DNA of 64,000 bases. It comes from Candidatus Manganitrophaceae bacterium. GTDB taxonomy: Bacteria; Nitrospirota; Nitrospiria; SBBL01; Manganitrophaceae. A program made the translations under genes and the position numbers. The notes beneath the pieces were generated by a model. The model searched no databases, was not told the origin of the DNA, and saw nothing but the letters and a program-made list of their open reading frames with translations. The stretch is taken from assembly GCA_016200325.1 (NCBI GenBank), contig JACQEZ010000009.1:1-64000 (forward strand), read 5' to 3'. Positions 31,030 to 34,266 of this stretch are shown piece after piece (position 1 is the stretch's first letter; every line of letters begins with the position of its first letter).

Positions 31030-31307
31030 ATGAATAAGAAGGAGTTAGTCGAGTCGGTGGTCGCCGCAAGACGAAAAGTGGTTCGAGCAAGCGAGCGGTG
31101 GTTGAGATCGTAGGCGAGACTTTCGCCGCGATGGCAAAAGGGATAAAGAAGAATGGGAGATTCAGCTTTCCCGGGTTTGGCACATTTACCGTCCGCGCCC
31201 GCGCCGCGCGTAAAGGAAGAAACCCGCAAACGGGTGAGACTATTAAGATCAAAGCCTCCAAATCGATAAAGTTCAAGGCGGCTCCCTCTCTGAAAAGGAG
31301 CCTATAG
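31030..31307 (+). pseudogene. HU-family DNA-binding protein with a frameshift
   Basis: ATG 31030, behind TGGAGGAAT, begins MNKKELVESVVAA, the normal HU start. The frame closes at a TAG at 31111-31113. The remainder, SSKRAVVEIVGETF through FPGFGTFTVRARAARKGRNPQTG and KFKAAPSLKRS, lies in another frame from about 31077. A one-base loss in the CGAAAAGT run near 31072-31079 explains it. The joined product would be 93 residues, exactly HU length. It is a pseudogene unless this is a sequencing error or recoding site. Confidence 0.85.
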
Positions 31308-31313
31308 ACTTCA

Positions 31314-31589
31314 ATGAAAAAGAAACCTAAACTCAACAATACTAAACCCAGAACCATGGTTGAGCGGGACGCCAACTTCTATCGTAACCCGACTCAAAGA
31401 GAAATAGAAGTGATCCGTCTCGTTGCTGAAGGCTATAAAAATAAGGAAATCGCAGGAGAGATGGGTATTTCGGTCAAAACTGTCGAAACTCACCGATCTA
31501 ATGTCATGAATAAACTTGCTTTTCGAACTGTCGCGGACCTTATGAGATATGCAATCCAAAAGGGAATTATCAAGATAGAACTTGAGTGA
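31314..31589 (+). CDS. Short LuxR-type helix-turn-helix protein
   Basis: This 91-residue protein is essentially a single LuxR/GerE DNA-binding domain. It reads NPTQREIEVIRLVAEGYKNKEIAG, then ISVKTVETHRSNVMNKL. There is no receiver or ligand domain, so it is a stand-alone HTH (GerE-like). It starts seven bases after the HU pseudogene. It could regulate the transfer genes, but no target site is evident. Confidence 0.85.
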   Translation: MKKKPKLNNTKPRTMVERDANFYRNPTQREIEVIRLVAEGYKNKEIAGEMGISVKTVETHRSNVMNKLAFRTVADLMRYAIQKGIIKIELE

Positions 31590-33134: not shown

Positions 33135-33344
33135 TTATTTGACGGTCTTCAGGCGGATTCCGAGACGCCGTTCCTCCGCCGCAATCTTCTCATCTATCGC
33201 GCTTCGCACCAAATCAACGGCCGGATCATGTGTCTTATCATGCCAGCGTTTAAGCGCCTCGGCCTGATCTCTCCGAAGCAAGTATTGCTTCCGCACGAAG
33301 GGAAGATTCTCGTCCGAAGCATATTGTCGTTTTTTAATTTTCAA
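33135..33344 (-). CDS. Ribbon-helix-helix protein (CopG-like)
   Basis: This 69-residue protein has the ribbon-helix-helix pattern KQYLLRRDQAEALKRWHD, followed by DPAVDLVRSAIDEKIAA. Such proteins are dimeric DNA binders that often autoregulate. It is the third gene of a minus-strand operon and overlaps the preceding gene by four bases (ATGA). It is a good candidate for binding the palindrome at 34167-34196. Confidence 0.72.
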   Translation of the reverse strand: MKIKKRQYASDENLPFVRKQYLLRRDQAEALKRWHDKTHDPAVDLVRSAIDEKIAAEERRLGIRLKTVK

Positions 33345-33700
33345 AAGAGTCGATCCTGCTGATCGGACTGTTTATTGAGCCGGCTGGCCGCAATCGCCTG
33401 AGCCGCATCCCATTCGTACCCCTTTCGATGCAAAGCGACCATCGTAGAAACAAGCGTCGTTTCGTTTTTATCGTACCGCACTGTAGCACGCTGCCGGCCG
33501 GGTTTCGCGATTGCAGTGATCTTTCCGCGGCTGAGCAGGTATTGAATCGCGTTGCTGTAGGTTTTAATCTCCTCAAGCGGAGCATGACATGCGAAGAGAA
33601 ATTGCCGAAGTCGAAGGAATCTTCCGTCCTTTGGAAGATGGTCGACCTTTTTTACATGTCTCATATCGCCTGTTCTACGAATCCACTTCCTTTGTTGCAT
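33341..33700 (-). CDS. Putative winged-helix/MerR-like protein
   Basis: The 119-residue protein has YSNAIQYLLSRGKITAIAK, then GRQRATVRYDKNETTLVST, then ALHRKGYEWDAAQAIAA. The order of helix, basic wing and Arg-Tyr followed by a helix recalls MerR-type DNA-binding domains, although the usual N-terminal helix is not clear. It overlaps the upstream gene by 40 bp. ATG 33664 is a possible shorter start. Family assignment is tentative. Confidence 0.6.
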   Translation of the reverse strand: MQQRKWIRRTGDMRHVKKVDHLPKDGRFLRLRQFLFACHAPLEEIKTYSNAIQYLLSRGKITAIAKPGRQRATVRYDKNETTLVSTMVALHRKGYEWDAAQAIAASRLNKQSDQQDRLF

Positions 33701-34164
33701 ATTAATCCCCTATAAGCAATTTTGATACATTCTTTAAATCCCCAAAGATCCGCGCCATCAAGGAGAACGACAATTGACTCGGTGCGATCGCCCTTTATTT
33801 CTTTTGGTATAGAAGAGACTGCTGTCTCCTGCGCCTTGAGGAAAAAGCGGTCAGGGCCGTCCATTGTGACCTGAAGCTGCTTTTTCTTTTCGCCAAAGTG
33901 GTGAAATAAGTCGACCAAGACCCCCTTTTGGGGCGCTTCAAGGTGGCTGCCGATCTGGGAGAGGTCCTTCTCGGAAAGACGGAAGACTAACTTCTCCTCC
34001 CAGTTGTATTTGCGCTCTCCTTTCGACGGAATCTTTCGTTCCATCCCTTTCATCGCCCGACATACTTCTAACCAGACGCCCCATTCGCCGCGGTGCATCT
34101 TTGCGCTCAGCCTCAAAGCCGAGGATCCCTTGGACCAGATTTCTTCAAATCGGTATTCGTTCAT
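33661..34164 (-). CDS. Whirly-like single-stranded DNA-binding protein (candidate)
   Basis: The 167-residue protein, without signal or membrane segments, resembles the Whirly/MRP fold. KGSSALRLSAKM, then GVWLEVCRAM, and the core RKYNWEEKLVFRLSEKDL match the KGKAAL, LLLQFAP and YDWxxKQxFxLS blocks of Whirly proteins in order. The end (VLLDGADLWGFKECIKIAYRG) fits the final strand and helix. Such proteins bind single-stranded DNA or RNA as tetramers, fitting DNA transfer. No Shine-Dalgarno precedes either ATG (34164 or 34179), so translation may be leaderless. Confidence 0.55.
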   Translation of the reverse strand: MNEYRFEEIWSKGSSALRLSAKMHRGEWGVWLEVCRAMKGMERKIPSKGERKYNWEEKLVFRLSEKDLSQIGSHLEAPQKGVLVDLFHHFGEKKKQLQVTMDGPDRFFLKAQETAVSSIPKEIKGDRTESIVVLLDGADLWGFKECIKIAYRGLICNKGSGFVEQAI

Positions 34165-34166
34165 AT

Positions 34167-34196
34167 CTACATAGATCATACATAGAATCTATGTAG
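34167..34196. promoter_or_regulatory. Operator-like palindromes at the start of the Whirly-like operon
   Basis: CTACATAGA (34167-34175) is the exact reverse complement of TCTATGTAG (34188-34196). A third half-site ACATAGA between them forms a tighter palindrome ACATAGA-A-TCTATGT. The array covers the position where the promoter and ribosome site of the operon should be, so a bound protein would block expression. The RHH and wing-HTH products of the same operon are candidate ligands. Confidence 0.6.
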
Positions 34197-34266
34197 AACA
34201 CAATAAAAAAATAAACGACTCGCCACCGCCGGTCGAACGATCCCAGGGTTTTCGATCTATTTATTG

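Follow-up and report, generated by a model that had tools for sequence, protein, structure and literature searches.

Does a bacterial mobile element encode a Whirly protein, and what would such a protein do there? Whirlies have been described as guardians of organelle genomes that are specific to plants (PMC9070903), are known for single-stranded DNA (ssDNA) binding and organelle genome stability (PMC9070903; PMC10909546) and, according to a review, have no reported homologue in a cyanobacterium (PMC10909546). The locus considered here lies in a 64,000-nucleotide window, the whole stretch of DNA that was analysed, which is part of a 154,765-bp contig (G000:C9) of a genome whose named close relatives are Candidatus Manganitrophus (Nitrospirota, Troglogloeales). 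The element in the window carries an F-type type IV secretion system (T4SS), a VirD4-like coupling protein, a DnaG-like primase, a replication-relaxation protein, an integrase and metal-resistance cargo. The original prediction proposed that a three-gene operon on this element encodes a Whirly-like protein that could protect transferred single strands or bind RNA. Its main idea, that a conserved operon encodes a Whirly-like protein in a bacterium, proves partly right. What is new and best supported is that the operon recurs and has a conserved candidate operator, not the protection of DNA in transfer.

A recurrent operon with conserved upstream repeats

The operon occupies the minus strand of the window as three overlapping open reading frames (34164/34179-33661, 33664/33700-33341 and 33344-33135), with every start after the first located at or ahead of the preceding stop, in the arrangement originally described (34179-33661, 33700-33341 and, from a TTG, 33344-33135). 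Gene 1 (33661..34164, minus strand) encodes a Whirly/PUR-like protein of 167 amino acids from its likely start, M6, or 172 from the ATG at 34179. At three-gene loci most gene 1 homologues start at MRxFEE, so that M6 at 34164, and not the ATG at 34179, is probably where translation begins. Gene 2 (33341..33664, minus strand) encodes a MerR_1-like winged helix-turn-helix (wHTH) protein of 107 amino acids from its likely start at 33664, which falls at a conserved M-x-HVK and forms an ATGA overlap with the gene 1 stop; its frame can be extended to an alternative upstream start at 33700, preceded by an AGGGGA-like stretch. Gene 3 (33135..33344, minus strand) encodes a small ribbon-helix-helix (RHH)-like protein of 69 amino acids, and its TTG start at 33344 overlaps the gene 2 stop.

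The two partners of gene 1 had been called a wing-HTH and an RHH protein. Three of four gene 2 orthologues tested score 21.7–25.4 bits against MerR_1 (cut-off 21.6), with no MerR match in Pfam for the window copy itself, and the family alignment reveals a conserved C-terminal [QE]x[RK]LF-COOH in which LF is invariant. Gene 3, present at all four three-gene loci, resembles RHH proteins by pattern only, its family profile having no RHH match in Pfam, NCBIfam or the PDB. All three genes are under purifying selection: between G302 and G301, dN and dS are 0.21 and 1.23 for gene 1, 0.09 and 0.99 for gene 2, and 0.02 and 0.81 for gene 3.

The operon is a real gene module, since it recurs on related plasmids and contigs. 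A search for the same gene order elsewhere recovered it in full at three loci besides the window (G253, G302 and G301:C92). Gene 1 homologues are found on three Manganitrophus plasmids, at 52–53% identity, and in the genomes G253, G300, G301 (two copies), G302 and G303. At plasmid-type loci gene 1 stands between an upstream AbrB-like gene and a downstream gene 2, and gene 3 is absent (AbrB-Whirly-wHTH). In the PDB, BFVD and the genome, plasmid, phage and viral collections searched, homologues were found in Troglogloeales/Manganitrophus relatives only, and 84,980 species genomes, scanned twice with seed patterns at limited sensitivity, yielded Nitrospirota loci only. A phage origin of the operon was rejected, with no match among phage records or viral contigs, as was a defence system, with no meaningful PADLOC match.

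An HU-family gene (31098..31307, plus strand; Pfam Bac_DNA_binding, E=6e-22) and a stand-alone LuxR/GerE HTH gene (31314..31589, plus strand; Pfam GerE, E=7e-19) converge on the operon in the window, and genes of these types face it at all loci examined except G253. The window HU gene (31077-31307) seems N-terminally shortened, as homology extends 5' of its first start codon. In G302 the LuxR gene and the operon are separated by a DnaJ-domain gene, which in G301:C92 holds the same position but is apparently split into two frames (L025:1870-2886, L024:535-1538); the window locus shows none. In G253, HicA-like and HicB-like toxin-antitoxin genes (L005:2818-3000, L006:7198-7626), recognised by eye, lie downstream of the operon.

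Directly before gene 1, all four three-gene loci carry two or three tandem near-palindromic 10-mers, TCTA(TG/CA)TAGA, at 11-bp spacing. In the window this operator-like site (34166..34197, minus strand) comprises three such units (34197-34188 exact, 34186-34177 imperfect, 34175-34166 exact) and ends 1 bp before the likely start of gene 1. The original prediction had placed palindromes over the gene start. Inverted repeats of 11+11 and 8+8 nt are indeed there and span the annotated start, but with M6 as the probable start they would lie just upstream of gene 1 and not inside it. When 18 genomes belonging to the order were scanned with the tandem pattern (at most one mismatch), G253, G301 and G302 each had a single site, in every case in front of the operon, there was none elsewhere, and controls gave no match; the window repeats escape this pattern because one unit is on the other strand and one is imperfect. 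The repeats are missing at all three AbrB-type loci examined, which are without gene 3. We regard these palindromes as conserved operator-like units, and we infer that gene 3 is their reader because repeats and gene 3 co-occur.

Candidate -35/-10 boxes overlap the repeats. Those in the window are weak (TTGTGT-N17-TATGAT, overlapping the candidate operator), and the promoter match stands clearly above shuffled sequence at one of four loci (G301:C92). The -10 box lies five to ten bases before the ATG at three loci, which suggests that the gene 1 transcript may be leaderless or near-leaderless. An RNA element over the gene 1 start was rejected, with no Rfam match.

Gene 1 between the Whirly and PUR families

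Several lines of sequence evidence link gene 1 to Whirly proteins. The window protein matches the Pfam Whirly family (PF08536) at 20.4 bits (E=4.8e-4), just under the curated Pfam cut-off of 23 bits, over profile positions 38-81 of 136, and an orthologue in G301:C343 passes that cut-off at 23.7 bits. All six gene 1 family members match Whirly and no other Pfam family, and each of the six PDB sequence matches of gene 1 is a plant Whirly. Searched against the PDB, the family profile ranks plant WHY2 first (E=8.6e-4), and hhalign aligns the family with plant Whirly segments at 94% with a score of 48, the maximum for column-shuffled targets being 21. A GxRKYDWxxK signature followed by a strand and a helix is present in the family and aligns to WHY2; K57, Y58, W60 and K63 are invariant. 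The G301:C343 orthologue (L009:2698-3177, SCUR01000208.1) contains an in-frame TAG and is followed by a split gene 2 frame, so that this copy looks decayed.

The three blocks on which the original prediction relied, KGSSAL, LEVCRAM and YNWEEKLVFRLS, are real, and the region of YNWEEKLVFRLS is the formal Whirly match (E=4.8e-4), but the homology signal resides mostly in a single block of about 28 residues and the second lysine of KGKAAL is missing. Similarity does not extend over the whole Whirly domain, as hhalign returned 95% for the N-terminal half and 1–15% for the C-terminal half. The counterparts of KGKAAL in the family are KGSSAL, KGSAAL, RGSGTL, RGSGAL and RGAAAL, none with the second lysine; this residue has been linked to higher-order assembly, and algal Whirly-like proteins are also without the motif (PMC9070903).

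The predicted fold has the double four-stranded sheet whose absence would have refuted the original prediction. An AlphaFold2 model of gene 1 (pLDDT 81, pTM 0.78), for which the alignment was built from genome loci only and the plasmid-record row was left out, has the strand/helix order E E E E H E E E E H, that is, bbbba twice: two four-stranded antiparallel sheets with a helix after each, as in the Whirly/PUR topology. Comparison with known structures did not single out the Whirlies. Foldseek ranks PURA first (E of about 1e-5, probability 1.00, TM-scores of only 0.32–0.45), the best matches being nucleic-acid-binding PUR I-II repeats, and no plant Whirly appears in the top 50. A control model of a bacterial Whirly from G135, made from a similarly shallow alignment (pLDDT 64), does return plant Whirlies first. 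Kinetoplastid MRP1/MRP2, which have a related fold, turn up in the fold search of this control but lie outside the top 50 for the window protein. The title of a Pur-alpha structure paper, as it appears in the reference list of PMC7990775, speaks of a 'whirly-like fold'.

With plant Whirlies (WHY1/WHY2/WHY3, PBF-2; PF08536) gene 1 shares the bbbba-bbbba topology and a GxRKYDWxxKxxFxLS block preceded by a KG-xx-AL block; it differs in a match mostly confined to 28 residues, without the second K of KGKAAL, in having two putative DNA-binding genes as operon partners and in the low Foldseek rank of Whirly structures. Because Foldseek favours PURA while the G135 control returns plant Whirlies, we assign gene 1 to the Whirly/PUR superfamily without calling it a Whirly. 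From its sequence and its model it would be a divergent subfamily, nearest to Whirly by sequence.

The closest competitor to our reading, though an improbable one, is that gene 1 would be a PUR-type protein like Borrelia Bpur, a transcriptional co-regulator that acts with genes 2 and 3 and binds double-stranded DNA or RNA rather than ssDNA. All 12 Foldseek matches at E <= 0.001 are PURA/Pur-alpha, and genes 2 and 3 resemble regulators. Bpur, a bacterial PUR protein known for co-repression, enhances the repressor BpaB and prefers RNA over double-stranded DNA over ssDNA (PMC3764826). PUR-domain proteins (human/Drosophila PURA repeats I-II, Borrelia Bpur) have the double bbbba fold that is predicted for gene 1, but TM-scores to PURA are low and there is no detectable sequence kinship: Pfam gives no PUR match to the gene 1 family up to E=10, hhalign to bacterial PUR stays at background level (0.08%), and the GxRKYxWxxK block fits Whirly.

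The G135 gene itself (G135:C17:107262-107804; L019:1405-1947) is a clear bacterial Whirly in one Nitrospiraceae genome, with 42 bits and plant Whirly structures as its top Foldseek matches. It was the only Whirly among the 175 family genomes searched; PF08536 matched G135 only across 396 Nitrospirota genomes, and G135 and G301 across 270 genomes of the class. Neither a plant Whirly segment nor the G135 protein matched the plasmids. The G135 protein is bacterial like that of gene 1, shares Y-x-W-x-x-K with it and is encoded on a contig with a TraC/VirB4-like ATPase about 105 kb away; it differs in its identity to the window protein (about 21%), and no such three-gene operon is seen around it.

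Possible roles of the operon

We propose, with a probability of about one in two, that the operon is a self-regulated, element-borne regulatory or nucleoid module that binds single-stranded nucleic acids. It would be a small autoregulated operon on mobile elements of Troglogloeales (Manganitrophus and relatives), in which gene 1 probably binds ssDNA or RNA with a beta-sheet surface and probably has an mRNA with no or almost no leader. Genes 2 (MerR-like wHTH) and 3 (RHH-like) would serve as DNA-binding partners. One of the two, most likely gene 3, probably represses the operon by feedback through binding to the tandem 11-bp operator that overlaps the promoter. Together with its HU and LuxR-type neighbours, the operon may make up a nucleoid/regulatory package of the element, acting on single strands that are exposed in replication, repair or transcription.

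Other roles appear unlikely. One is DNA-damage tolerance, in which gene 1 would protect ssDNA gaps and gene 2 would dock to the sliding clamp through its [QE]x[RK]LF terminus, alongside SOS polymerases. This terminus (gene 2, 33341-33664) resembles a sliding-clamp binding motif. Its LF is invariant, but two gene 2 members have E where the clamp motif has Q, and the terminal TTT TGA of gene 2 also carries the TTG start of gene 3. In G253 the operon is flanked by divergent genes for lexA, a RadA/ImuA-like protein and a B-family polymerase, and on the GAC1 and GAC4 plasmids lexA, ImuA-like and Y-family polymerase genes are found at a distance of a few kb, but no homologue of these lexA or polymerase proteins was found in the window, in the part of the remaining contig that was retrieved or in the 20 kb around the G300:C7 copy. 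The G253 genes lie in a row (L006:1356-5372), as an SOS-type cassette with a B-family and not a Y-family polymerase.

Least probable, by a little, is the role that the original prediction suggested, in which gene 1 is a conjugation accessory protein coating the transferred single strand in ICE or plasmid transfer: the F-type T4SS, coupling protein, primase and replication-relaxation genes do lie just beside the window operon and distant TraC homologues occur on two carrier plasmids, but a dedicated transfer role is unlikely because the sister genome G299, whose TraC is 81% identical, has gene 1 nowhere, the sister T4SS regions G300:C2 and G253:C55 have no operon beside the relaxation gene, and plasmid CP114563 carries the operon with no TraC match. 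Comparison with those sister T4SS regions also rules out the operon as core conjugation machinery.

Returning to the self-regulated module, we tentatively suggest that Nitrospirota mobile elements may harbour, in the form of a self-regulated operon, a prokaryotic branch of the Whirly/PUR superfamily that has not been described before, and that, together with the G135 Whirly, it may indicate that a 'plant-specific' family has prokaryotic, element-borne relatives. If true, such relatives could bear on the origin of the Whirly family. A bacterial mobile-element branch with a conserved operator would offer a simple genetic setting in which to test the activity of the Whirly/PUR fold, and with the operon the gene pool of the plasmids and ICEs that carry it gains a possible single-strand-binding module.
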